From assembly GCF_026262505.1 (NCBI RefSeq), contig NC_067204.1, positions 14,526,522-14,590,521 of the forward strand: a stretch of DNA of 64,000 nt. The letters are read 5' to 3'. Of the stretch, positions 34,854 to 64,000 are shown in pieces. How positions within the stretch are numbered: position 1 is the first letter of the stretch; each line of letters opens with the position of its first letter. The position numbers and the translations under genes were made by a program. Under the pieces are notes generated by a model. It did not search any database. It was not told the DNA's origin and saw only the letters and a list, made by a program, of their open reading frames with translations. The DNA comes from Trichomonas vaginalis G3. Taxonomy: Eukaryota; Parabasalia; Trichomonadida; Trichomonadidae.

Positions 34854-36263
34854 ATGTCGAAAGATATTGCTTCCATGAGAGAAATACAACACAACCGACA
34901 ACTCATTATGCAAGCTCTAAATAAGAACACAACAAACTTTTCAAACTATTCTAAGATATCTGAGTCATTGAAAGAAGGAAACTTAAAACTGACATTAAAC
35001 CCAATGACAGATGAGTTTCTGTTTCAAGACAATAAGAACCATACTGTCTGTATAAATCCAACAAAAGGAACTTTAAACGAGAAACCTATAAATGAACTTC
35101 TTTTGAAAACAGATGTTGACAACAAAGCTGACAAAGAATATGTAGACGATGCAATAGCAAAAGAAGAAGAAAGAGCTAACAATGCTTATGCAACAAAAGA
35201 ACATACTCATCCTGAACTAGCAGACAAAACATATGTTGACAATAAAATGTCAAGTGAAGTGACGAGAGCTGAAAACGAATATTCTAAAAAGACTCATACA
35301 CATTCTATATCTGAAATAACAGACTTAAACGTTAGCCTTGAAAAGAAAGCAGATAAGGAATATGTGGCTAGTAAGTTAGAGAAGAAAGCGGATAAGGAAT
35401 ATGTGGATGAAAAAGATAACGAAATGAAAGAAAGGGTTGACTGGTACCATGAATGGACATCGAAGACTTTTAAAGTTAAAGCCGATACAGGATGGGTTTC
35501 AGGATGTTTAGACCTTAAAGCAGATAAAACTTATGTTAACGATGAGTTAGAGAAGAAAGCAGACAAGAACCATACACATACAAGTTTTACAACTGTTGCT
35601 ATAGAAAGTATTGAAGGAACGGTTGAAGAAACTGGTGGGGATGCAATATATTGTAAACCTCCTAACTTTCCACAAGGTTTAACATCGGATGACGACATAA
35701 CGACGATGAGAAACATTAGATGTAAAGATGTTTATGTCATGAAGGATGAACATAATATTAAATTCACTGCTCAAGATTTATATGACAAGAAAGCAGACAA
35801 AACAGAGCTTCAAACATTAAAGACAGAAATGCTTCAAACATTATATCCTATAGGCTCTATTTATACGTCAATGAACTCAACAAATCCAGAAACAGTTCTG
35901 GGTTTTGGAACTTGGACTCAAATAGTCGACAGGTTTTTGTATTGTGCAAACTCTTCAAAGGAAACAGGGGGAAGTAAAACGATTTCAGGTGAAAATTTAC
36001 CTGCACATAGTCACTACATAGATTTAAGTACATCTCAAGCAGGTTGGCATAAGCATAATTTTTGGGATTGGTCAGCAATGAAAAAAGGTAAAGGATATGA
36101 TGTTAAAGACGACGTTCAGTTTGCTATAAATTGTTTCTGGGGTAACACTCAGGGAGATGGAAACCATACACATCGCGTTTCGGGATATACACAAACAACG
36201 GGACAAAGTAAAGACTACATGCCACCTTACATGACAGTTTACGCATGGTATAGAAATGCTTAG
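34854..36263 (+). CDS. Fibre-like protein with phage tail/collar-type C-terminal domain
   Basis: The 469-aa protein has an N-terminal helical part, then repeated ADKEYVDEK / ADKTYVNDEL segments and HTH motifs across residues about 90-330, typical of trimeric phage tail fibres. The C-terminal 140 residues begin YPIGSIYTSMNSTNPETVLG and continue with GTWTQIVDRFL, LPAHSHY and a PPYMTVYAWYR end. This is the collar/receptor-binding-type domain found widely in Firmicutes phage structural proteins. The likely role is a host-binding fibre or spike on the Maverick virion. It is convergent with the integrase gene, overlapping it by 4 bp at the stop codons. A degraded second copy lies near 50200-50480. 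Confidence 0.82.
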   Translation: MSKDIASMREIQHNRQLIMQALNKNTTNFSNYSKISESLKEGNLKLTLNPMTDEFLFQDNKNHTVCINPTKGTLNEKPINELLLKTDVDNKADKEYVDDAIAKEEERANNAYATKEHTHPELADKTYVDNKMSSEVTRAENEYSKKTHTHSISEITDLNVSLEKKADKEYVASKLEKKADKEYVDEKDNEMKERVDWYHEWTSKTFKVKADTGWVSGCLDLKADKTYVNDELEKKADKNHTHTSFTTVAIESIEGTVEETGGDAIYCKPPNFPQGLTSDDDITTMRNIRCKDVYVMKDEHNIKFTAQDLYDKKADKTELQTLKTEMLQTLYPIGSIYTSMNSTNPETVLGFGTWTQIVDRFLYCANSSKETGGSKTISGENLPAHSHYIDLSTSQAGWHKHNFWDWSAMKKGKGYDVKDDVQFAINCFWGNTQGDGNHTHRVSGYTQTTGQSKDYMPPYMTVYAWYRNA

Positions 36264-37218
36264 TCGTCATTTTCAACTTCTTTAGCATATTCGTCAGGAG
36301 TTGTCTTATATTTGTTAGGAACTGTCTTTGAAAGTATACCACCTTGAACTTTGACAAGTTTGAAACGAGGTCTGACAATAGTAGTTTTATCTTCTGCTTG
36401 CAGTGTGTACATTTTGCCATGTTTGCCTAAAACTTCATAATATTCTCTTGTATACTTTCTTCTATTTTTACGAACACGAATGTGAGTACCTGTCGGGTTC
36501 CCATTGTTGTCATAGTCAATAGTATTTTCATATGGGTCGCGTTTAGGTATTTCTATTTTTACTTTGTCACCTTTCTGAAGTTTGAAGCCCGGCATTCTTT
36601 CTTGTTTGTCTCTTTTGAATAAATTATTAAATATATAGTCTTTCTCTAAGTCAGGGTTGTTTTTCATTTCTTCGGGGGAGTGGTTTCCCAACCTTTTTGT
36701 TTACGGTTGTTGTAAATATTTAAAACTTGTCTCATCTTTGCCATGGAGAAGTGTCTATATTTGTCGTCATATGACATTTCATTTGCTTCACCACCTTGTG
36801 GTTGGTTTAAGTCTCTTAACATTTTTATACAACCGTCAATGACACCAAGAGCAGAATGGTTTTGGTCGACAATGAAATATTGGTTTACATTTTTTGAACG
36901 CAGATAGTTTTTTACATCATCTGATTTGAAAGAACTTTCACAGTCAGATGTCAGTTTTGTTGGATGGTATTTGTCAACGAATATTGTCAAAGCTGCTAAG
37001 ATATCTAAAATATTTTTGGACTGTAATGGTATGGCTTCACAGTATCTTGTGTTTTGACCGACAAATATTAGCCAGTATGGTGGTCCATCTTCTCTATACC
37101 TCGGAATGTTTTCCAAGATATCCATAAACCAAGCATTTGGTGTTGAACTAAAGATTTTTATCATGAGTGCTTTCTTTGTCGCTTTAGAAACATAGGGGTC
37201 CTTGTTTGGATTCGTCAT
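36260..37218 (-). pseudogene. Maverick retroviral-type integrase, one frameshift
   Basis: The N-terminal ORF (37218-36664) holds the catalytic core: Asp33 in WFMDILENI, Asp92 in TSDCESSF and Asp127 in ALGVIDGC, where a Glu is usual. The second ORF (to 36260) holds a basic SH3/chromodomain-like DNA-binding tail (GDKVKIEIPKRDP, HIRVRKNRRKYTREYYEVLG). The two meet in a run of five C near 36680, where one base is probably missing, so this is likely one gene. Integrase inserts the element and makes the short target duplication. A different degraded integrase occurs near 48870-50100. If the third residue is truly Asp, activity needs testing. Confidence 0.8.
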
Positions 37219-39703: not shown

Positions 39704-39717
39704 AAAATAATGTTTAT

Positions 39718-41128
39718 GTTAGCATGTTAGATCTAACACGTTTTCTAACATTTTTTCTAACCTCATGAATTTGTCATGACTTCTTCGTAAATGTTTTGTC
39801 AAGACTTCATCGTACATGTTTTGTCAAGACTTCATCGTACATGTTTTGTCAAGACTTCTTCGTAAATGTTTTGTCATGACTTCTTCGTAATGAGTGTAAA
39901 GGACCCAAAAATATATTTTAGGGTAGAAGGTTAGATCTAACCTGTTTTCTAACCTGTTTTCTAACCTCTTGAATTTTCATGACTTCTTCGTAAATGTTTT
40001 GTCAAGACTTCTTCGTAATGAGTGTAAAGGACCCAAAAATATATTTTAGGGTAGAAGGTTAGATCTAACCTGTTTTCTAACCTGTTTTCTACCCTCTTGA
40101 ATTTTCATGAATTTCCTTAAGATAGAAAAAATAAAGTTAGTTTTATTTTTTTATTTTGTATGTTAGATATGATTTCAGGGATTTTTTTGACGAAGTGTCA
40201 ATCTTCACTTCGTCAAAAAATAACAGTTATCTAATGAAAAAGTGTCATTTTTTTGTATTTTTTGTATGTAAGATATGATTTCAGGGATTTTTTTGACGAA
40301 GTGTCAATGTTCACTTCGTCAAAAAATAACAGTTATCTAATGAAAAAGTGTCATTTTTTTTCACCCTCTTGAATTTTCATGACTTCTTCGTACATGTTTT
40401 GTCATGACTTCTTCGTAAATGTTTTGTCGAAACTTCATCGTACATGCTTTGTCAAACATGAACGTAAATGTTTTGTCAAGACTTCTTCGTAAATGTTTTG
40501 TCAAGACTTCTTCGTAAATGTTTTGTCAAACATGAACGTACATGCTTTGTCATGATTTCATCGTAATGAGTGTAAAGGACCCAAAAATAATGTTTAGGTG
40601 AAGTGGTGCGATCTCACCTGTTTTTTCACCTCTTTTTTCACCTCTTGAATTTTCATGAATTTCCTTAAGATAGAAAAAATAAAGTTAGTTTTATTTTGTA
40701 TTTTTTGTATGTAAGATATGATTTCAGGGATTTTTTTGACGAAGTGTCAATCTTCACTTCGTCAAAAAATAACAGTTATCTAATGAAAAAGTTAGTTTTA
40801 TTTTTTTATTTTGTATGTAAGATATGATTTCAGGGATTTTTTTGACGAAGTGTCAATCTTCACTTCGTCAAAAAATAACAGTTATCTAATGAAAAAGTGT
40901 CAAGACTTCTTCGTATATGCTTTGTCATGACTTCTTCGTAAATGTTTTGTCAAGACTTCTTCGTATATGCTTTGTCAAGACTTCTTCGTATATGCTTTGT
41001 CATGACTTCTTCGTAAATGTTTTGTCAAGACTTCTTCGTATATGCTTTGTCATGACTTCTTCGTAAATGTTTTCTAACCTCATTTCTACCCTCTTGAATT
41101 TTCATGAATTTTCCCGAAATAAAAAAAT
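39718..41128. repeat. Iteron-like array 1 (25-bp repeats, palindrome clusters, hairpins)
   Basis: It comprises degenerate 25-bp units of the type GTCAAGACTTCTTCGTAAATG-TTTT, interspersed with clusters built on GGTTAGATCTAACC plus TTTTCTAACC half-sites (for example 39929-39942, 40057-40070), a TAACA-type cluster (39726-39760) and a TCACC-type cluster (40597-40650). Four leader-plus-hairpin cassettes are embedded (see 40169-40889). No long ORF. Confidence 0.85.
40169..40889 (+). other. Four repeated mini-ORF/hairpin cassettes with KilA-N leader
   Basis: Four near-identical 66-bp mini-ORFs (40169-40234, 40275-40340, 40718-40783, 40824-40889) each encode MISGIFLTKCQSSLRQKITV plus one Ile. Each follows the TTAGTTTTATTT...TTTTGTATGT leader used by the KilA-N genes. 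Inside each is a hairpin with 15-bp arms (TTTTTTGACGAAGTG / CACTTCGTCAAAAAA) and an 8-nt loop. A fifth copy lies on the minus strand (44533-44598). They may be leader peptides, regulatory RNA hairpins or stumps of deleted KilA-N genes. Confidence 0.6.
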
Positions 41129-41179
41129 AAAGTTAGTTTTATTTTTATTTATTTTTTTATTTTGTATGTAAGAACAGAT
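41129..41179 (+). promoter_or_regulatory. Shared leader of the KilA-N genes
   Basis: AATAAAGTTAGTTTTATTTT, then a T-rich tract and TTTTGTATGTAAGAACAGAT directly before ATG. Near-identical leaders precede 42367, 44675 and 45587, as well as the four mini-ORFs. Common regulation is inferred. Confidence 0.6.
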
Positions 41180-41842
41180 ATGTCAGTCGAAGCAAAAACG
41201 TTCACGAACAAATCTAATGGCGAAACATTCACAAAAGGCACTTATAACGGTATTGAAGTCTTACGTAGAGACAAGGATGGTTATATAAATGCAACAAATA
41301 TGTGTCAGCAGTTTAGGAAAGACTTTAGAAAGTTGTTGGAAAATAAGTCCTGGGAAGAGTATTATAAGGCATTTTGTGAAGAATATAGCAACCGCCGGAA
41401 TTCCGGCGGTTGGTTTTTATACAAAATTCATGCAGGAATTCCTGATGAAATCAGACAGGTTAGAGGAACGTATGTAGACCCAAGACTTATAAACTATATA
41501 ACAATGTGGGCTTCTCCAAAATATTGCATAGCAGTTGGAAAAATTATGGATTCCATAGACAAGAAAGTTCATGAGAAGTTAGATGAAGAAGAACTCGAAG
41601 ATACAGTAGAGAATGCTAAACCTTTGTTTGAAGAAGAAGTTGGAAAAATGTGCGAAAAACAATTAGAACATGAACGTGAGATATGTTATGGTTATAGAAA
41701 TTCTCCATACGAACTAGACCAATGGGAACAAGAAGATTTAAAGAGAGAATTTAGAGAATATGAACTCGCTAAGATAGCATTTGAAGCTGCAGAAAAGAAG
41801 TTAAAAGTTTGGGGTCGTTTTGTACAAAAATATTGTGAGTAA
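41180..41842 (+). CDS. KilA-N domain protein (220 aa)
   Basis: From the ATG at 41180 (MSVEAKTFTN). The KilA-N DNA-binding domain spans about residues 10-130: YNGIEVLRRDKDGYINATNM, then CQQFRKDFRKLLENKSW and YVDPRLINYITMWASPKYCIAVG. A charged helical tail to residue 220 has no second domain that I recognise. KilA-N proteins are abundant in large DNA viruses and phages as DNA-binding regulators. The coding sequence includes a perfect 24-bp GC-rich palindrome (41389-41412), encoding NRRNSGG, in the middle of the domain. The frame also continues upstream through TTG, but the shared leader favours the ATG. Confidence 0.85.
   Translation: MSVEAKTFTNKSNGETFTKGTYNGIEVLRRDKDGYINATNMCQQFRKDFRKLLENKSWEEYYKAFCEEYSNRRNSGGWFLYKIHAGIPDEIRQVRGTYVDPRLINYITMWASPKYCIAVGKIMDSIDKKVHEKLDEEELEDTVENAKPLFEEEVGKMCEKQLEHEREICYGYRNSPYELDQWEQEDLKREFREYELAKIAFEAAEKKLKVWGRFVQKYCE
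41389..41412. repeat. Perfect 24-bp palindrome inside the KilA-N ORF
   Basis: CAACCGCCGGAA followed by its exact reverse complement TTCCGGCGGTTG, centred on GAATTC. It keeps the reading frame. It is a GC island in an AT-rich gene, like the host-spacer hairpins. Confidence 0.9.
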
Positions 41843-41869
41843 AATGAACCATTTATTTTTATTGAATTC

Positions 41870-42310
41870 AGCAAAAATATATTTTAGGGTAGAAGGTTAG
41901 ATCTAACCTGTTTTCTAACCTGTTTTCTAACATGGTCTAAAACTCTCGAAAATCATGAAATTTACACCAAAAATATATTTTAGGGTAGAAGGTTAGATCT
42001 AACCTGTTTTCTAACCTGTTTTCTAACCTCTTGAATTTTCATGACTTCTTCGTAAATGTTTTGTCAAGACTTCTTCGTAATGAGTGTAAAGGACCCAAAA
42101 ATATATTTTAGGGTAGAAGGTTAGATCTAACCTGTTTTCTAACCTGTTTTCTAACCTCTTGAATTTTCATGACTTCTTCGTAAATGTTTTGTCAAGACTT
42201 CTTCGTAATGAGTGTAAAGGACCCAAAAATATATTTTAGGGTAGAAGGTTAGATCTAACCTGTTTTCTAACCTGTTTTCTAACCTCTTGAATTTTCATGA
42301 ATTTTCCCGA
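41870..42310. repeat. Iteron-like array 2, forward orientation
   Basis: Four GGTTAGATCTAACC palindromes (41895-41908, 41991-42004, 42119-42132, 42247-42260), each followed by TGTTTTCTAACC half-sites, the CTTGAATTTTCATGA block and 25-bp units. The last two clusters are nearly exact ~128-bp copies. Confidence 0.85.
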
Positions 42311-42366
42311 AATAAAAAATAAAGTTAGTTTTATTTTTTTATTTTTTTTTATTTTGTATAAAAGAT

Positions 42367-43305
42367 ATGATTTCAACAATAGGTTCTACAACACTTCAAA
42401 CAACAGCACCAAACTCGTTAGTCATGAATCCTACGTCAATGTTAGTAGAAATGAAAAGCTTCATTCCTTCTTCATATACTTTTGAAACAGAAATCCAGAA
42501 GATAAAGCAAGAACTTTTAACATGTAATTTAGACTGTAGTGCGAAAGATGAACAAAATGAACAGTATCTTTATGAAATGCAGGACATTATTGACCATTTA
42601 CCCAAATTGCCTGAAATTCAGCAACAAAAACTAACCATTCCTGAATTTGACGAAATTGAAGTCAAAGCAACTGACTCAGTAGAAATAAAGAAGTTCATTC
42701 GTAAGGTAAACTATGAGTTTCTAGGATTTCATTGCAACCATAAGGTTATGGACAAAGATTGCGACATGGTATATAAGAATGTTTCTGACATATATAAATC
42801 TGAAGAATTTAAGACCTACGACAACTTTGTTTCGTTAGTTGCTGAATGTGTATGGCAGATAAGAGATAAAGATAGAAGAGGTAAGGTATGGAACAAACAA
42901 ATAAAACCAACTGCTTCAGATTTAAAGAAAACCATTGACTCTTTAGTTGTTTTAGCAGGTAAGGTTTCAGAATATAACGCAAAAATGAACCCGCAATGTT
43001 CAAAATGTAAAGCGGCAATTAGGAAATATAACTACTCCGTCAAAGAGATAGAAAGAATGAGAAACGACTATGCAGACTTAAAGAAAGAAGCAGAAAAGCC
43101 AGCAGAAGATAAAATGGACATGTTGACATTTCTGAACAAAAACTATCCAACTGCTGACGATTTCCTTCTATCTGACGTCAAGAAGAAGTATAAAGAAACT
43201 TTCGGCATAGTTAAAACATTCGATGTACTAAAAGAAGAAATAGAAGCTACAAAACTGTTTAAAGTCATGAACCATCGCAACATATACCATGTAAAACGCT
43301 TGTGA
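42367..43305 (+). CDS. Hypothetical Maverick protein with the KilA-N leader (312 aa)
   Basis: The ORF starts MISTIGSTTLQTTAP right after the leader shared with the KilA-N genes. The body is helical and charged with a CNLDCSAKDE and PQCSKCKAAI pair of Cys motifs (residues about 55 and 213) that could bind zinc. The C-terminal 60 residues (MLTFLNKNYPTADDFLLSDV ... NHRNIYHVKRL) look like a winged-helix DNA-binding domain. No family is recognised. Repeat arrays flank it in opposite orientations, forward upstream and reverse downstream, placing this gene at the centre of a large inverted-repeat region. Confidence 0.7.
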   Translation: MISTIGSTTLQTTAPNSLVMNPTSMLVEMKSFIPSSYTFETEIQKIKQELLTCNLDCSAKDEQNEQYLYEMQDIIDHLPKLPEIQQQKLTIPEFDEIEVKATDSVEIKKFIRKVNYEFLGFHCNHKVMDKDCDMVYKNVSDIYKSEEFKTYDNFVSLVAECVWQIRDKDRRGKVWNKQIKPTASDLKKTIDSLVVLAGKVSEYNAKMNPQCSKCKAAIRKYNYSVKEIERMRNDYADLKKEAEKPAEDKMDMLTFLNKNYPTADDFLLSDVKKKYKETFGIVKTFDVLKEEIEATKLFKVMNHRNIYHVKRL

Positions 43306-44510
43306 AAAAACAGGTGAAAAAACAGGTTAGATCTAACCTTCTACCCTAAACATTATTTTTGCTGAATTCCGTATGAAATTTCATGAGTTTTGTGTGTTTT
43401 AGACCATGTTAGAAAACGTGTTAGAAAACATGTTAGATCTAACATTCTAACATAAACATTATTTTTGTCTGATTTACGCTCATTACGAAGAAGTCTTGAC
43501 AAAACATGTACGAAGAAGTCTTGACAAAACATGTACGATGAAGTCTTGACAAAACATGTACGATGAAATCATGAAAATTCAAGAGGGTAGAAAAGAGGGT
43601 AGAGAACAGGTTAGATCTAACCTTCTACCCTAAAATATATTTTTGTCTGATTTACGCTCATTACGATGAAGTCTTGACAAAACATGTACGATGAAATCAT
43701 GACAAATTCAAGAGGGTAGAAAAGAGGTTAGAAAAGAGGTTAGATCTAACCTTCTACCCTAAAATATATTTTTGTCTGATTTACACTCATTACGATGAAG
43801 TCTTGACAAAACATGTACGATGAAATCATGACAAAACATGTACGATGAAGTCTTGACAAAACATGTACGATGAAATCATGACAAAACATGTACGATGAAG
43901 TCTTGACAAAACATGTACGATGAAATCATGACAAAACATGTACGATGAAGTCTTGACAAAACATGTACGATGAAATCATGACAAATTCAAGAGGGTAGAA
44001 AAGAGGTTAGAAAAGAGGTTAGATCTAACCTTCTACCCTAAAATATATTTTTGTCTGATTTACGCTCATTACGAAGAAGTCTTGACAAAACATTTACGAA
44101 GAAATCATGAAAATTCAAGAGGGTAGAAAAGAGGGTAGAGAACAGGTTAGATCTAACCTTCTACCCTAAAATATATTTTTGTCTGATTTACGCTCATTAC
44201 GATGAAGTCTTGACAAAACATGTACGATGAAGTCTTGACAAAACATTTACGATGAAGTCTTGACAAAACATTTACGAAGAAGTCTTGACAAAACATTTAC
44301 GAAGAAGTCTTGACAAAACATTTACGAAGAAGTCTTGACAAAACATGTACGAAGAAGTCTTGACAAAACATGTACGAAGAAGTCTTGACAAAACATGTAC
44401 GATGAAGTCTTGACAAAACATGTACGATGAAATCATGAAAATTCAAGAGGGTAGAAAAGAGGGTAGAGAACAGGTTAGATCTAACCTTCTACCCTAAAAT
44501 ATATTTTTGC
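43306..44510. repeat. Iteron-like array 3, reverse orientation
   Basis: The same elements as arrays 1 and 2 but on the opposite strand: long runs of AAAACATGTACGATGAAGTC-TTGAC (25 bp, more than 20 copies), clusters at 43325-43338, 43431-43444 (TGTTAGATCTAACA variant) and further copies near 43610, 43740, 44015, 44145 and 44475. No ORF. Confidence 0.85.
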
Positions 44511-44532
44511 TGAAAAAAATGACCAAATTTCA

Positions 44533-44598
44533 TTATATAACTGTTATTTTTTGACGAAGTGAACTTTGACACTTCGTCAAAAAAATCCCTGAAATCAT
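44533..44598 (-). other. Fifth mini-ORF/hairpin cassette, minus strand
   Basis: An inverted copy of the mini-ORF cassettes. Its hairpin arms are 44547-44561 and 44570-44584 with loop AACTTTGA. It lies back-to-back with the leader of the next KilA-N gene. Confidence 0.6.
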
Positions 44599-44674
44599 AT
44601 CTTTTATACAAGACAGAAAAAATAAAGTTAGTTTTATTTTTATTTATTTTTTTATTTTGTATGTAAGAACATAT

Positions 44675-45284
44675 ATGACAAACATTGAGTTTGAAACAGT
44701 TAAAAAGATAGACAATGACACCAAATTGGTTAGAATAGGTGATTTAAACGTAAGATACTCAAAGAAATACAACAAATATTCTTTGTCAGACATTTATCTC
44801 CATCTGAAAGAAAACAAAGGACTGGGTTAGAATTGCTTCAACTCAGAAAATTTTGACAAGAAATCCTGAGCTTATGATATCGGTAAAATTCTATGGAACT
44901 GCAGCATATCTCATCGACAAAAGTCTTATACCAATAGTTTTGTTATGGTTAGACCCAGTTGTTGGATATAACTTCATAACATATGGTTCATTCGATACGG
45001 AACGTTGCAGTGAAGGCTTACTTTTACATCGTCAGAAACCGAAGGACTTCAATACAAAGAGATATAAGATAGGAAGAACATATAATATAACTCAAAGATA
45101 TGACAGTACAGTCAATATAGTCAAGGTTGTGTTCGTTAACGATATGAAGAGCTGCTGAAACAGAACTACTTGAAAAGTTGAGAAAATGTATGGTGCTCCC
45201 ACGAAAGGTAAAGAAACGTTTGAAGTAGATGAGATAGATAAAGCTATAAAATTATTTGACGAAGTTGCTGAAAAATACATGTAA
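44675..45284 (+). pseudogene. KilA-N + T5orf172 (GIY-YIG-like) protein, frameshifted
   Basis: The ATG at 44675 follows the shared leader: MTNIEFETVKKIDNDTKLVR. Near 44820 the frame shifts into WVRIASTQKILTRNPELMIS and continues to the segment KRYKIGRTYNITQRYDSTVN, the T5orf172 signature related to GIY-YIG nucleases. Near 45155 it shifts again to a GAPTKGKETFEVDEIDKAI ending at 45284. KilA-N fused to T5orf172 is a well-known combination in giant viruses and phages. At least two one-base lesions; error versus decay is unresolved. Confidence 0.7.
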
Positions 45285-45586
45285 AAATAACGTTTACCAT
45301 GTAAAACGCTTGTGAAAAAACAGGTGAAAAAACAGGTGAGATCGCACCTCTTCACCTAAAATATATTTTTGCTGAATTCCGTATGAAAATCTGAGTAAAA
45401 TGGCATAAGATTGCTACCCTCGAAAAACCGAGGATAGAGATTCCGTATGAAAATCATGAAGAACAGCGAGACCGACTTCCTTCGGGGTCGCCAAAACTCT
45501 ATGAAAATCATGAATTTCCTTAAGATAGAAAAAATAAAGTTAGTTTTATTTTTATTTATTTTTTTATTTTGTATGTAAGGACAGAT
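45285..45586. promoter_or_regulatory. Spacer with TCACC-type cluster and leader
   Basis: It contains GGTGAGATCGCACC followed by TCTTCACC (45331-45349), the TCACC variant of the palindrome cluster, a CCTCG-AAAAA-CCGAGG mini-hairpin near 45418, and then the KilA-N leader ending in GACAGAT before ATG 45587. Its first 60 bp repeat the end of the 42367 gene and beyond (CATGTAAAACGCTTGTGAAA at 43288 and 45297). Confidence 0.55.
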
Positions 45587-46407
45587 ATGTCAACATCAGA
45601 GAACACAACAACTGCTATCGTTCATGAAGCCATAAATGAAGAATACGAGTGGGTTCAGTTTAACAAACAACTCCGTCTCATTCGTTCGGTCAAAGACGAT
45701 ATGTACCAAATGCAAAGTATTTTGACAGCATGTTTTGCTCCAGACACTAAACACGCAGACGACTGGTTCAAAAACCAAAGCACACAAGAACTTTTGAGTG
45801 AAATTTCTCTAGACCGACTTTTTTCGGTTTTGCATAAAACACATGAAAATCGTAAAAATTTGCCAATAAATTTAAGAGGATATTATGTACATAGACTTTT
45901 AGTAAATGCAGTTGCAATGTGGGCTTCTCCTCGTTATGCATGGCATGTTTACAGACTTCTTGACGAAATTCATAGACAAGAACGTGAAGAGATGGAAAAG
46001 AAACTTCAAGCAAAAGATGAAGTCATTGAAGCAAAAGACAAAAACATTCAGAAAAGAATACACGTTCGGTACCAAAAGGTAAGGAAAAGAACTATAAGTA
46101 TATGATTTATACTGAAGAGATGGAAAATGAAGAAGATAAAGATATGGTTATGTTGCATTTAGTCAGAAGAAACAACAAAAGCTTTTACGACCTTGCTAAG
46201 ATTTACAAATCTGACAGAAATTGTTCTATCGCGAAAACTTACCGATTCAATGACACCGAATGAGATGTGAAACAAATAGTTCAAGATACGTTACCTCAAA
46301 CACACTATGATATTAAAGGTTGTACAATACTTACCTTCAAAGAAGATTTGCCATTGTTAAAGGAAAAAATAACAGAGTATTTTGACAACTTCAAACAAGT
46401 AGAGTAG
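45587..46407 (+). pseudogene. KilA-N-type protein with conserved C-terminal domain, broken
   Basis: The ATG at 45587 follows the shared leader. Residues about 15-130 form a divergent KilA-N-like domain ending GYYVHRLLVNAVAMWASPRYAWHVYRLLDEI, followed by a charged linker. Near 46060 the frame shifts to a domain reading NYKYMIYTEEMENEEDKDMV ... NRNCSIAKTYRFND, reminiscent of DUF3627-type partners of KilA-N in insect and giant viruses. An in-frame TGA at 46261 interrupts it, and the stop is at 46405-46407. Family placement of the second domain is tentative. Confidence 0.6.
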
Positions 46408-46850: not shown

Positions 46851-47722
46851 TCAAGCTTGACTTTTTACAATTTGAACTTTGTTCGCGTAGATATGAATTC
46901 TGAAAGAAGTATGAGGGTCTTGTATGACTTTGTACTTCTCCCATAGTTCATATCTGTCAAACTTACCTGCCATGGACTCTTTCATAAGTTCCATGAAATC
47001 GTCTTCGGACAATCCGGGGAAAAGTACAATGTCAGTAAGTATTCTTTTAACATCCTTACTTAAACTCTTTGCTGTCTGTACACATATTACGACTGAAATG
47101 TTAAAGTGTCTGAGCTTCTTAAGAATTCGACACATATCTTGTTCTCTATTCTTAAGCAAAGGATGAGAAGCAAAGTCATCTAAGATAAGAAGACATCTAT
47201 GAGGGTAAGTCTTCCAATCGTAAGATTGCAATTTCTTCGAAATGTATTCTATCTCTTTCTGTTTGTTTCTGAAGTGTTTCTCTCTAATATTCTCTGCATT
47301 TCCTCATTTGGTCTTTAAACTTCGAATTTATATACTCATTTATAGCATTATACTTCAAAACTCTTCTTTGGTACTTCTTTATCCAATCTAACAACTCAGT
47401 ATCCTTTATACATACTAACTTAGACTTCTTATAATATCTTTGAACGAATTGACGGTTTGGTCAAATTGACCAGAAGTACTACAAATGACAACTAACTCAT
47501 AGAAATGGGTTCTTCTCATCTAGTTCTTGTTGTTGTGCAGCCATTTAAGATAAGTGAAAGTCTTACCCGACCCAGGTGTGCAATTAGACCTGTTATACCA
47601 TTCTGAGCAAATAAGAACTTGTCATGTATAGGCTTTATCTGAGCATTTTCTAACTTCCTCTTGTTCTTGTTTAAAACATTCTCAAATTTCTTGTCAATGT
47701 CAGCAAACTTTTTTTCTAACAT
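46851..47722 (-). pseudogene. FtsK/HerA-type genome-packaging ATPase (copy 1), frameshifted
   Basis: The start at 47722 reads MLEKKFADIDKKFENVLNKN. The Walker A loop (GSGKT preceded by PP/TP) is visible near 47545-47580 but split by small indels. The Walker B block HRCLLILDDFASHPLLKN lies in the intact C-terminal ORF (47231-46851), with ICVQTAKSL as a sensor-type strand. This is the A32/FtsK-type ATPase that packages DNA in Polintons, virophages and poxviruses. About 290 aa overall, typical for the family. Indels match low sequence quality near the gap. Confidence 0.72.
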
Positions 47723-57533: not shown

Positions 57534-59224
57534 TCACTTTGTTCTACTCTTCTTCTTTGGTGTCGCTTTTGGTAACTTGCCCTCTGCTTCAAGTTGTTGC
57601 ATCTTTGCCTCATGTTCACCTAGTATGTTGTAAATTTCCATGTCCTTTTTGCCTTTGGGCTCTGGTCGCCCATCTCAGGTAACCTATATCCTAGAAAGAT
57701 TTTGTCATAGTTTGTATTTGAGTCTTCGCGTATTGTTTGCATGACTCTTTCCTGAGTTTCCGGTTCAAGCTCTTCAAACAGAGCTTGTCCATATGGAATA
57801 TGCTCGTTTCCAAATATATGTTTTTGTAGCCATTCTGGTTTTCTTTCCATGTTACCAACAATATCTTTTGTGAATGGGAAAGCTTTTACCCAATGTTTCA
57901 GTCTTGCGTCATTTATTTCTGTAGTTTCCAAAGGAGGGACTTGTTTGTTTCCTTCAGGCTCTTCTAGCTGTTGTTGCTGAACTATTTCTTCCATGTCTGG
58001 TTGTATCTGAACTTCTTCCTGTGGAGTTTCTTGTACCTCATCTGGTGGTATATAAGTTCCACCAGCTGGCACATATGTTCCATCTGCAGCATAATGTCCT
58101 ACCTGACTTTTCGTTTTTAAGAAAGCATTTACTAGGTCTGTTTTGGTCTGTTGTAACTCTTTTTCTTGACTTTCCACAACAGTTGCTCTAACGGCGTCAT
58201 AGGCACTTTGAACTGCCTGTCTCGTTGCTGCATCTGTTATTTTCGTCATATTTTGTGCTACTTCTCTTAACTCTTTGTCGAAACCTTCAGACTTCAGTTT
58301 CTTTCCAGATGAGAAGTCGTTCACTAGTTTCACCTTACTATGAAGAGCTTCGAAGGCGTTCTTAAAGTCAGCATTCATTAAAGCTTCATTTGAACTGTCT
58401 TCATCCGCTTGTATTTTTGTCCTTATTGACCCTATAAGTTGGGCTGCTTTAGCGTTGGCTTGGGCATCTAACCAGTCATTATTAGCTTTTATATATTCTG
58501 CGCTTTTCATTGCCTTTTGCATGGCTGCGTCGTTATTTTTACTTTCTTGTGCTAAGTTTTCATACTGTACGGTTTGGTTTTGCAACTGTAAAAGTTTTTC
58601 TGCCTTTACATTTGCTTCAACTTCTTTTTTATACTCATCGCTATCCATATATGTCTTCAGGGCTTTTTGTTTTATCTCTTCATCTTTCAGTACTTTATAT
58701 TGAGTAGTATGGTTTTTCAAATTTATAACATCTTGTTCCATTTTTGCTACTTCTGCTGCTTTTTCTGACACTTTTTTCGCATATTCCTCTGTACTTAGTT
58801 CTTTCAGTTGTTCTTCTTTCTTCTTTTTCTCTACGTTTAACTCATTGAGTTTCTTTGTGTGTCTGTCATATTCTAGTTTCTTTTCGTTTTCACTTATTTG
58901 TTTCTGTATGTCTATGTTTGACTTTTTGACATCTGTTATTTGATTTTTGAGTGAACTCAAATTCATTTGACTTTGAGGGTTATAAGCTGTTCCGTCTGCA
59001 GCTCCACCATAGCCTGCCATTTTCGCTAAAAGTGCCGCTCTTAAACCTCCACTCTGTGCACCAATAACTCGGTTTAAAAGCATAGGGTTGCTTGACATTT
59101 GTTGCAACATAGTGGGGTCATTCATCATTTGTTGTTGCAACTGTTGTTGTGGTGTCAGTTTTACTATTGGATGTTTCAATGCTCTCTTCCTCTTACGTAT
59201 ATTCTTACGTAGCTTACGTGGCAT
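57534..59224 (-). pseudogene. Maverick structural-type protein, internally deleted copy B
   Basis: Equivalent of 1040-4303 with the same ATG context (59224) and N-terminal 385 residues. Two internal in-frame deletions remove about 860 bp (between positions equivalent to 1434 and 2298) and about 700 bp (2415 to 3125), taking out the Pro/Gln repeats and half of the C-terminal region. A further missing C near 57640 shifts the last 35 codons, giving a premature stop. Both deletion joints lie at short repeats (TAGTT; CTGGTGGTATA). It may be non-functional. Confidence 0.75.
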
Positions 59225-61398: not shown

Positions 61399-64000
61399 AT
61401 GCCACGTAAGCTACGTAAGAATATACGTAAGAGGAAGAGAGCATTGAAACATCCAATAGTAAAACTGACACCACAACAACAGTTGCAACAAACAAATGAT
61501 GAATGACCCCACTATGTTGCAACAAATGTCAAGCAACCCTATGCTTTTAAACCGAGTTATTGGTGCACAGAGTGGAGGTTTAAGAGCGGCACTTTTAGCG
61601 AAAATGGCAGGCTATGGTGGAGCTGCAGACGGAACAGCTTATAACCTCAAAGTCAAATGAATTTGAGTTCACTCAAAAATCAAATAACAGATGTCAAAAA
61701 GTCAAACATAGACATACAGAAACAAATAAGTGAAAACGAAAAGAAACTAGAATATGACAGACACACAAAGAAACTCAATGAGTTAAACGTAGAGAAAAAG
61801 AAGAAAGAAGAACAACTGAAAGAACTAAGTACAGAGGAATATGCGAAAAAAGTGTCAGAAAAAGCAGCAGAAGTAGCAAAAATGGAACAAGATGTTATAA
61901 ATTTGAAAAACCATACTACTCAATATAAAGTACTGAAAGATGAAGAGATAAAACAAAAAGCCCTGAAGACATATATGGATAGCGATGAGTATAAAAAAGA
62001 AGTTGAAGCAAATGTAAAGGCAGAAAAACTTTTACAGTTGCAAAACCAAACCGTACAGTATGAAAACTTAGCACAAGAAAGTAAAAATAACGACGCAGAC
62101 ATGCAAAAGGCAATGAAAAGCGCAGAATATATAAAAGCTAATAATGACTGGTTAGATGCCCAAGCCAACGCTAAAGCAGCCCAACTTATAGGTCAATAAG
62201 GACAAAAATACAAGCGGATGAAGACAGTTCAAATGAAGCTTTAATGAATGCTGACTTTAAGAACGCCTTCGAAGCTCTTCATAGTAAGGTGAAATAGTGA
62301 ACGACTTCTCATCTGGAAAGAAACTGAAGTCTGAAGGTTTCGACAACGAGTTAAGAGAAGTAGCACAAAATATGACGAAAATAACAGATGCAGCAACGAG
62401 ACAGGCAGTTCAAAGTGCCTATGACGCCGTTAGAGCAACTGTTGTGGAAAGTCAAGAAAAAAGAGTTACAACAGACCAAAACAGACCTAGTAAATGCTTT
62501 CTTAAAAACGAAAAGTCAGGTAGGACATTATGCTGCAGATGGAACATATGTGCCAGCTGGTGGAACTTATATACCAGCTGGTGGAACTTATATACTAGCT
62601 AGTGGAACTTATATACCACCAAACCCTCCAAGAGAGCACCTGCACCAGGACTACCTAAACATTTACATCGTCACATGGACACAGACACAGGCATGCACCA
62701 AAACCAACACAACAACCAACAGTTCAAAAATCCAGCACAACAACCAACAGTTCAAAACACTGCACCACAACCAACAGTTCAAAACACTGCACCACAACCA
62801 ACAGTTCAAAACACTGCACCACAACCAACAGTTCAAAACACTGCACAGCAACAACCCACAAACAGAGCAAGGACATAAAAGAAGTAGAGAACAAGGAAAC
62901 CAAGAATTCTTAAAAATGCTTAAGGAAACTATGGTTACCCAGATACTCTTGACTTTAGTGACAGATATAAGAAGCTATTAGAAAGTTCAAGGAAGGAAAA
63001 TACTGACCCGAACCTATTTAGCTTTATGGTTCAGCACCAAATGGGATAAATTTCAAACCTGGAAAATACAAGCTCGCTAAGGGATATGATTTAATAGCAT
63101 ATCATCCAATGACATGAATGAATTTACTCCGAGATATTTGATGTCAGAGCTAAATGATAATTCAACTCTCTTCATGAAACGCGTAAAAAATAGAGACGGA
63201 ACGAAAGAAGAAAGGTTTATGAGTCGGATGACTTAGATAGGGAACTTTTAAAAACGGTCTCGGAATATATGAAATGCAGCAGATGAGGTACAAGAAACTC
63301 AACAGGAAGAAGTTCAGATACAACCAGACATGGAAGAAATAGTTCAGCAACAACAGCTAGAAGAGCCTGAAGGAAACAACAAGTCCCTCCTTTGGAAACT
63401 AACTTCACAGAACTAGATGAAGATTTGGAAACAGCCGAAAAATCTTGACCCTCAAAAGAGTATGCGGGGAATATGGAATCTTTCCAAGAGTCTAAGAAAA
63501 ATTCGGCTGACATAGTAGAAGAATATCGAAAAATGTTCGCCGACATACAAAAGACTCCCAAATCAGATGAAAATATTCAGCATAGAATGGAAGAATGAAA
63601 GAAAGTGTACGCAAATACAACAATCCTTTTTACTTACGACCATATAACGTTCAATCTTTGGCTGAACTCGGTGAAAATAAAAGGTTAAATTTCAACAAAA
63701 CATATAGAAATGAAACATTGTTTAAAGTTCATTCAGAACCTAACCAATATGGAAACAAACCTACTTTTGTTTCTACAGACTATGGAACTACAATGAGATG
63801 GGTCATAAAGCTAATCCGGATAGGTGGTTCATAAACTTACAACCTCAATTCCAAGAAGTTGTAGACGCAATGGAAGTGAATGGTGAACCAGATATAGCTG
63901 GTATTTCAGCGCGGCTTTAATGCCATTGAAAGATATGAAACATGCAGATATTTTGGACCAGTATGAAATGAACATGGCTGATGGAAATATAACACCTGAC
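61399..64000 (+). pseudogene. Maverick structural-type protein (copy C), many frameshifts
   Basis: Third copy of the 1087-aa gene, ATG at 61399 with initiator TCACTT at 61390-61395. Relative to the intact copy A it has breaks near 61490, 61645, 62193, 62295, 62460, 62640, 62700, 62930 and repeatedly up to 63910. The GGTYIPA and PTVQNTAPQ repeats are present (62540-62860). It runs off the right edge. Indels are mostly in homopolymers and become denser after 62400. Confidence 0.8.

Follow-up and report, generated by a model that had tools for sequence, protein, structure and literature searches.

The sequence analysed here, referred to as the window, is a 64-kb stretch of the Trichomonas vaginalis genome (G000:C2:14526522-14590521; genome searches were carried out on the 180.85-Mb, 86-contig assembly). 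From about 32 kb onwards it bears genes of the Maverick type: an rve integrase (Pfam match 6e-8 at 36664-37218), a Pox_A32-like ATPase (Pfam match 2e-7 at 46851-47231), two KilA-N genes, KilA1 and KilA2, and a DUF3839 gene. An rve integrase and an A32-type packaging ATPase are characteristic of Maverick/Polinton elements; matches to both are present here, each in a short open reading frame (ORF), and may belong to a single element, a Maverick/Polinton of T. vaginalis being the likely host of the structures described below. Protein-primed DNA polymerase B (PolB) and terminal inverted repeats are also characteristic of such elements. No Pfam match to PolB was found among the 29 ORFs scanned, host ORFs included. 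A repeat scan revealed inverted repeats in the window. Surrounding the KilA1-DUF3839-KilA2 module are sixteen palindrome clusters, eight on each strand, between 39704 and 45369. These arrays, and the way in which their sequence type follows that of the DUF3839 C-terminus, are the subject of this work.

Palindrome clusters around the KilA1-DUF3839-KilA2 module

Read in its own orientation, a cluster is composed of an anchor, AAAATAATGTTTA or AAAATATATTTTA (two forms which differ at three bases), two half-sites, H1 and H2, the palindrome centre, and three further half-sites, H3, H4 and H5. The half-sites are approximately 7 bp long and occur in three types: GG(T/G)TAGA (type 1), TGTTAGA (type 2) and GGTGA(A/G)A (type 3). 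H1 and H2 are spaced by 8 bp, and H3, H4 and H5 by 12/12 in 90/116 clusters, H5 being unrecognised in 16 more. The pattern GKTNNGATCNNAMC matches the window 14 times, compared to 0.13 matches expected in shuffles, and the type 2 palindrome TGTTAGATCTAACA is found at 39725 and 43431. A scan of the 64-kb window for the palindrome form, in which the element ends are undefined, disclosed no cluster outside 39704-45369.

These palindromes had been noticed in an earlier reading of the same DNA, the original prediction, and were found where it had placed them. Its ten clusters stand; six on the reverse strand (43325, 43609, 43738, 44017, 44145 and 44473) had been missed. Its proposal that the half-sites of a cluster agree with each other holds for 13 of the 16 (one of these, at 45311, judged on four half-sites), while those at 39704, 41874 and 43301-43359 are mixed. 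All are listed in Table 1 with the genes of the module. The order of the module, with forward-strand clusters before KilA1 and again between KilA1 and DUF3839, and reverse-strand clusters between DUF3839 and KilA2, recurs in other loci. In the module loci compared, the clusters beside DUF3839 turn their H5 side toward that gene.

Table 1. Palindrome clusters and module genes, in window coordinates
Feature	Position	Strand	Remarks
Type 2 cluster	39704..39762	+	H1-H4 TGTTAG; last half-site type 1
Type 1 cluster	39908..39966	+	
Type 1 cluster	40036..40094	+	
Type 3 cluster	40584..40642	+	H2 is GGTGCG, giving an imperfect palindrome
KilA1 gene	41162..41842	+	KilA-N domain, Pfam 1.9e-24; listed from TTG, first ATG at 41180
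Type 1 cluster	41874..41932	+	Last half-site type 2
Type 1 cluster	41970..42028	+	
Type 1 cluster	42098..42156	+	
Type 1 cluster	42226..42284	+	
DUF3839 gene	42367..43305	+	Pfam DUF3839 2.2e-155; H5 sides of flanking arrays point toward it
Three-allele C-terminal block of DUF3839	43264..43287	+	Codons 300-307; here the type 2 allele, VMNHRNIY
Hybrid cluster	43301..43359	-	H1-H3 type 1 joined to type 3 H4; overlaps the DUF3839 stop codon
Type 2 cluster	43407..43465	-	
Type 1 cluster	43585..43643	-	
Type 1 cluster	43714..43772	-	
Type 1 cluster	43993..44051	-	
Type 1 cluster	44121..44179	-	
Type 1 cluster	44449..44507	-	
Type 3 cluster	45311..45369	-	H5 cut short
KilA2 gene	45569..46105	+	KilA-N domain, Pfam 3.6e-27; first ATG at 45587

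Half-site agreement across the genome and the DUF3839 C-terminus

Exact copies of the 16-bp type 1 palindrome number 1,772 in the genome, and its reversed control has none. Two patterns including the anchor and GATC, with the half-sites left free, matched 5,277 (2467+2810) and 3,153 (1527+1626) places, or 8,430 together, their reversed controls matching 0 and 1. We could read 162 distinct clusters in 66 loci fetched from the genome. The types of two half-sites of a cluster agree in 88-94% of cases, from 133/152 for H1-H4 to 152/161 for H1-H2, where 36-38% would be expected by chance. Where all five half-sites are readable, 105 of 129 clusters are uniform, compared to 2.5% expected under independent assortment. 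Among 159 places listed for contig C1, a set overlapping with the fetched loci, H1 and H2 are of the same type in 156. The original prediction had proposed collecting clusters and following their covariation, with random assortment as the opposing outcome; in this genome the half-sites clearly covary. A scan of viral_contigs with the type 1 pattern and with the KilA1 profile gave no match.

The bases that distinguish the types are found at equivalent positions of all five half-sites, mainly positions 1 and 4, and almost none of this information lies in the anchor (mean mutual information with type 0.01) or in the H3-H4 spacer (0.07). Association between half-sites is strong even at a distance of 40 bp (Cramer's V 0.80-0.90). 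That between the anchor and half-sites is only 0.16-0.26, the 95% shuffle limit for anchor-H2 being 0.21, with the H1 value above and the H2 value inside it; that between spacer base 36, which separates H3 and H4, and the half-sites is 0.23-0.31. With a single cluster per locus (n=56), V is 0.92 for H1-H5 and 0.31 for anchor-H1, inside the 95% shuffle limit of 0.35. The anchor is thus nearly shuffled with respect to type, and spacer base 36 shuffled to a considerable degree, while H1 to H5 remain matched, implying that short-tract exchange uncouples type from the adjoining DNA and seldom parts one half-site from another. This linkage pattern points to selection for matching of the half-sites, and so upholds the idea that their coordinated change is the sign of an array tracking the specificity of a protein.

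The DUF3839 proteins carry, at codons 300-307, one of three blocks which correspond to the type of the array downstream: (I/V)SRIHNVY with type 1, VMNHRNIY with type 2 and ISNIHRTI with type 3. Among 31 distinct loci, the block belongs to the same class as the first downstream half-site in 30, and to that of all readable half-sites within 98 nt downstream in 29. The sole downstream mismatch is the window itself, where a type 2 block adjoins the type 1/type 3 hybrid cluster. Upstream, where approximately 0.9 kb separates the array from the block, block class and array type coincide in 26 of 30 loci; 20,000 shuffles gave a mean of 12.0 and at most 23. In the half of gene pairs with the more divergent bodies, the effect of the block on agreement upstream (a difference of 0.60) was reached by 0/5,000 shuffles. 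From the upstream set we left out the near-identical L090 and L029 (L029 is a mismatch, like its twin L093), L072 (whose DUF3839 is the same as that of L071), L096 and L065 (mixed upstream arrays) and L012, whose upstream half-sites read 211221 beside a class 3 C-terminus and which would be a further mismatch. Type labels in this set were read by eye and the block of 5/30 loci was taken from a BLAST alignment instead of a direct anchor.

The signal is concentrated at this end of the protein. Along DUF3839, the mean excess of information on downstream type is 0.62 bits in the last bin (codons 300-307) and at most 0.05 elsewhere; for upstream type it is 0.24 bits in the last bin and at most 0.10 elsewhere, BLAST gaps having blurred some columns near codons 300-307. 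A fairer comparison, using the same grouping throughout, gives 0.57 bits shared with upstream type for codons 300-307 and 0.07-0.35 for windows of the body; the allele class itself shares 0.84 bits. DUF3839 as a whole does not follow type, since the types are interspersed in a 19-row tree with few well-supported forks. A search of a very large protein set found 323 DUF3839 homologues. Among the 120 listed, all named T. vaginalis, 116 could be classed to one of the blocks and the remaining 4 are one residue off.

Comparison of blocks and half-sites suggests a two-part code: position 1 of the half-site would be G where the block starts S-x-I-H, and position 4 would be T where it ends N-(V/I)-Y. 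The remaining combination, a type with T at position 1 and G at position 4, gave 0 matches to the one pattern used. Residues 252-311 are modelled, with low confidence, as helix-helix-helix-strand-strand, an order that can only suggest a winged helix whose wing would hold codons 300-307. Searches of Pfam and PHROGs with the DUF3839 C-terminus gave nothing credible.

Other features of the module and scarcity of GATC

The word AATAAAGTTAGTTTTATTT occurs six times in the window, always on the forward strand and after groups of arrays (40130, 40678, 41126, 42318, 44621 and 45533; 0.01 expected). These positions include ones ahead of KilA1, DUF3839 and KilA2, and the word may be a shared promoter element of the module. 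A hairpin whose stem is nearly perfect (TTTTTTGACGAAGTG ... CACTTCGTCAAAAAA) is also present inside the arrays in five copies, at 40183-40220, 40289-40326, 40732-40769, 40838-40875 and 44547-44584, which may be small transcription units or terminators. A 25-bp tandem unit resembling TCAAGACTTCTTCGTAAATGTTTTG lies between clusters at 39770-41073 and 43484-44438, its orientation being reversed from one side of DUF3839 to the other. Elsewhere in the genome, at G000:C1:2948707-2953611, clusters form a mirror image, with type 3 then 2 on the forward strand and, after a gap of approximately 350 bp, type 2 then 3 on the reverse strand. We also considered whether the inverted arrays might bound an invertible cassette; in the module loci compared, KilA1, DUF3839 and KilA2 are on the same strand wherever at least two of them are present (22 loci, several overlapping), and one opposite-strand case, L082, occurs among other loci. 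In a domain search, the broken gene at approximately 44.7-45.2 kb gave a weak T5orf172 match and none to KilA-N. An ORF of the Maverick stretch (34854-36263) has matches to Gp10_C (phage baseplate) and to a phage tail repeat, and a perfect 548-nt inverted repeat (58431-58978 / 61645-62192), enclosing 2.7 kb, lies in DUF4106-related sequence.

GATC is rare in the element outside the clusters: window positions 32301-64000 contain 2 copies compared to 35.5 expected from trinucleotides, the lowest ratio of the 256 words (ATCA and TGAT have a larger z), and host DNA at 4.5-32 kb contains 84 compared to 101.6. The ratio is also the lowest in 21 less redundant loci (37 vs 96.8). Sixteen element ORFs have no GATC vs 21.0 (standard deviation 3.5) under synonymous shuffling, and host ORFs 66 vs 65.8; 47 distinct DUF3839 pieces (34.9 kb of related copies) have 0 vs 68.4, KilA1 pieces 1 vs 6.2 and KilA2 pieces 0 vs 4.7. 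Where GAY precedes C, the element ORFs use GAT/GAC 0/25 times and the host ORFs 31/10 times. When ranked by synonymous-shuffling z-score, GATC is fifth, after ATCA, ATTA, AATC and AATT, and GGCC is also low. Because the depletion extends to these other words, a broader effect of codon context contributes to the scarcity of GATC.

GATC is not an invariant core of the clusters, a possibility that we rejected: with the six-base core left free, the pattern matched 4,737 places, of which only 3,503 have AGATCT and about a quarter lack it, and among 100 such places listed 25 differ from AGATCT, 24 by losing GATC (judged by eye). GATC is kept in 133/162 distinct clusters, a set biased by the choice of loci for lacking GATC and by patterns requiring it. 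In loci L076-L085 the palindromes lack GATC (their centres are GATA, GATT, GATG or AATC) while the half-sites are largely intact, and 8 of these 10 loci are without any GATC. In this eukaryotic element, the avoidance has the appearance of an escape from a four-base cutter. D12 methylase (PF02086) and DpnII (PF04556) profiles had no match in the genome, a result which proves little. In T. vaginalis, N6-methyladenine is reported to show greater enrichment in WATW and TAT contexts than in SATS (PMC12695648), a preference that provides no link to GATC, and GATC restriction in giant viruses (PMC7253447) is an analogy only.

A possible recognition system and its alternatives

We consider that the clusters are probably protein-binding arrays of three specificities. 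They would be operator- or enhancer-like arrays in the intergenic DNA of a Maverick regulatory module, each presenting five half-sites of approximately 7 bp at fixed spacing, with types 1, 2 and 3 representing three recognition specificities. The most likely cognate factor would be the element's own DUF3839 protein, whose three alleles at residues 300-307, travelling with the array types, would set specificity; when bound, the arrays could control the promoters of the module itself, as operators do when occupied by the immunity repressor of a phage. We infer binding, the identity of the binder and regulation alike from the sequence patterns described above, and the fuller proposal, in which DUF3839 binds the arrays and its C-terminal alleles determine specificity, is advanced tentatively, as having somewhat less than an even chance.

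Several observations weigh against it. Mixed clusters account for 24/129 of those fully readable, and the type signal at spacer base 48 is moderate (V 0.42-0.53 with the half-sites). Four of the 30 upstream comparisons are mismatches, including that in the window, and by nearest-neighbour agreement codons 300-307 predict upstream type only slightly better (0.75) than do body windows (0.40-0.68; chance 0.38). Only about 25 bp separate the block from the downstream array, and within a class the DNA of the block is near identical (28/28, 6/6 and 14/15 rows, counting overlapping loci and disregarding the first codon of type 1), suggesting that the two are exchanged as a linked DNA tract; the mosaic loci L029 and L091, and the window, fit block and array moving as one. 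Homogenisation of arrays within an element is, to judge from the sequences, also real. In 18 elements (of 20 tried, using only loci with matching upstream and downstream types), neutral positions of the upstream and downstream arrays of one element agree at 0.889, vs 0.824 between elements of the same type (0/5,000 shuffles), and the two sides have the same anchor in 83% vs 48% of cases. Such homogenisation could carry type across DUF3839, and linkage and homogenisation together could therefore generate co-segregation without any binding. In addition, NCBI gives several DUF3839 homologues the name 'organellar and viral DNA polymerase type B', a label that would suggest a role in replication, although Pfam matched only DUF3839 here, and the structural model of DUF3839 is poor (predicted local distance difference test score, pLDDT, 40).

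The arrays might instead be bound, with the same three specificities, by KilA-N proteins (KilA1, KilA2 and others elsewhere) acting in trans across the thousands of copies, which we regard as unlikely without being negligible. The neighbouring KilA-N paralogues were the partners named in the original prediction, and KilA1 does have a KilA-N domain and, in its model (mean pLDDT 82.5), an APSES-like fold, the best fold matches being the Mbp1 DNA-binding domain with middling scores. However, KilA1 copies 93-96% identical to that of the window are found beside type 1 (L021 and the window) and type 3 (L082, L085 and, for the most part, L062), and pieces 94% identical to it beside type 2 (L071 and L072), while a second KilA1 lineage is found beside type 1 (L026) and type 3 (L057 and L036). 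Nor does any KilA1 or KilA2 column predict type better than shuffled labels (the best column was reached by 0.13 and 0.94 of shuffles, respectively), in small samples of low power, with 14 and 10 distinct rows that represent only types 1 and 3. The choice of these paralogues is thus not borne out, and DUF3839, whose C-terminus follows array type, is the better candidate. Since proteins of thousands of copies would act in trans, a lack of linkage in cis remains compatible with KilA-N binding. PDB sequence searches with the DUF3839 and KilA1 profiles gave nothing credible; KilA1 has relatives, seen as proteins only, in Tritrichomonas, Histomonas and metagenomes.

It is also improbable, in our view, that the arrays have no cognate factor and are simply repeats homogenised by conversion, slippage and exchange, with the DUF3839 C-terminus hitchhiking beside the downstream array. 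Besides the homogenisation, the near identity of the C-terminal DNA and the mosaic clusters already mentioned, the decay of type agreement with distance speaks for this: 46/51 pairs of clusters agree at less than 250 bp, 51/62 at 250-600 bp, 101/139 at 600-1600 bp and 415/1246 (chance 0.36) at 60-200 kb, based on all 100 listed places of the first pattern and 59/100 of the second (up to 4.05 Mb). Part of the agreement is thus inheritance. Against it, the anchor, only 4 bp from H1, is near equilibrium with type, yet H1 to H5 are matched over approximately 46 bp. H1 moreover retains its own variant in types 1 and 3 (GGGTAG in 42 and GGTGAA in 44 clusters, for GGTTAG in 43 and GGTGAG in 34 at H2) and is not copied from H2. 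Part of the linker between block and array is common to different types, TTATAAAATAACTGG being found beside type 1 (L092, L099 and L003) and type 3 (L036 and L064), and there is no signal of type at codon 309 (-0.03; codon 311 gives 0.22, there being few variants).

TCTAACC and TCTAACA hold an AAC core of the kind read by Myb proteins, and a host transcription factor, such as a Myb-like protein of the parasite, might read the half-sites. This is quite improbable: type 3 (TTCACC) has no AAC core, the window clusters are confined to one module of the element, and three co-existing versions would better fit an allelic system encoded by the element. Covariation by mutual pairing of the half-sites as a hairpin in RNA or single-stranded DNA can be set aside as highly improbable since, even if the sequences of H1 and H2 complement those of H3-H5 and the palindrome might fold, H3, H4 and H5 are on one strand and cannot pair but agree (H3-H5, 119/131) nearly as well as H2-H3 (146/158), which favours protein binding, and the pairing-breaking type 3 H2, GGTGCG, is kept in 6 clusters.

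For arrays bound by the DUF3839 protein, two known systems provide comparisons. Baculovirus homologous regions (hr), several of which are dispersed over the entire viral genome, are tandem imperfect palindromes bound by IE1. Like these, the arrays combine repeated palindromes with spacers of tandem repeats within a large DNA element, and could have an enhancer or origin role; unlike them, they occur in three matched specificity types around one gene module. The closest working analogy, functional only and implying no membership, is provided by Cluster A mycobacteriophages with their immunity repressor and stoperators (PMC6550527, PMC9283540). There too, many dispersed copies of a short site occur in related versions in a virus-like mobile genome, and the repressor is encoded by that same genome, DUF3839 being the candidate counterpart. 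In these phages, repressors with an identical helix-turn-helix and different C-terminal regions have distinct stoperator motifs, and the C-terminus influences immune specificity (PMC6550527). The arrays share with phage-type operators the presence of multiple copies of a short site (16 clusters in the window, 8,430 places in the genome). Covariation of specificity with an element-encoded protein may be a further parallel, the agreement with DUF3839 (30/31 downstream and 26/30 upstream) being confounded by linkage and homogenisation. In contrast to stoperators, they belong to the Maverick of a eukaryotic protist, have five half-sites and a palindrome per cluster, lie, in the window, in one module, and can include all three types in one element. 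In the part of the open-access literature covered by our search, we found no description of the arrays, the DUF3839 alleles, Maverick palindromes or GATC avoidance in Trichomonas.

A more far-reaching interpretation, possible but doubtful, is that of a eukaryotic parallel to phage immunity groups, an allelic system of recognition in which the three-allele C-terminal segment of DUF3839 is paired with matching arrays on both sides of the gene and the pairs are kept while the rest of the module recombines. Elements of different type would then act independently in one nucleus. If the proposal is right, it would provide a function for DUF3839 and reveal self/non-self regulation in a virus-like transposon present in very many copies per nucleus. 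It also turns a vague pattern into a direct question, that of three natural versions of a protein and three natural DNA sites.

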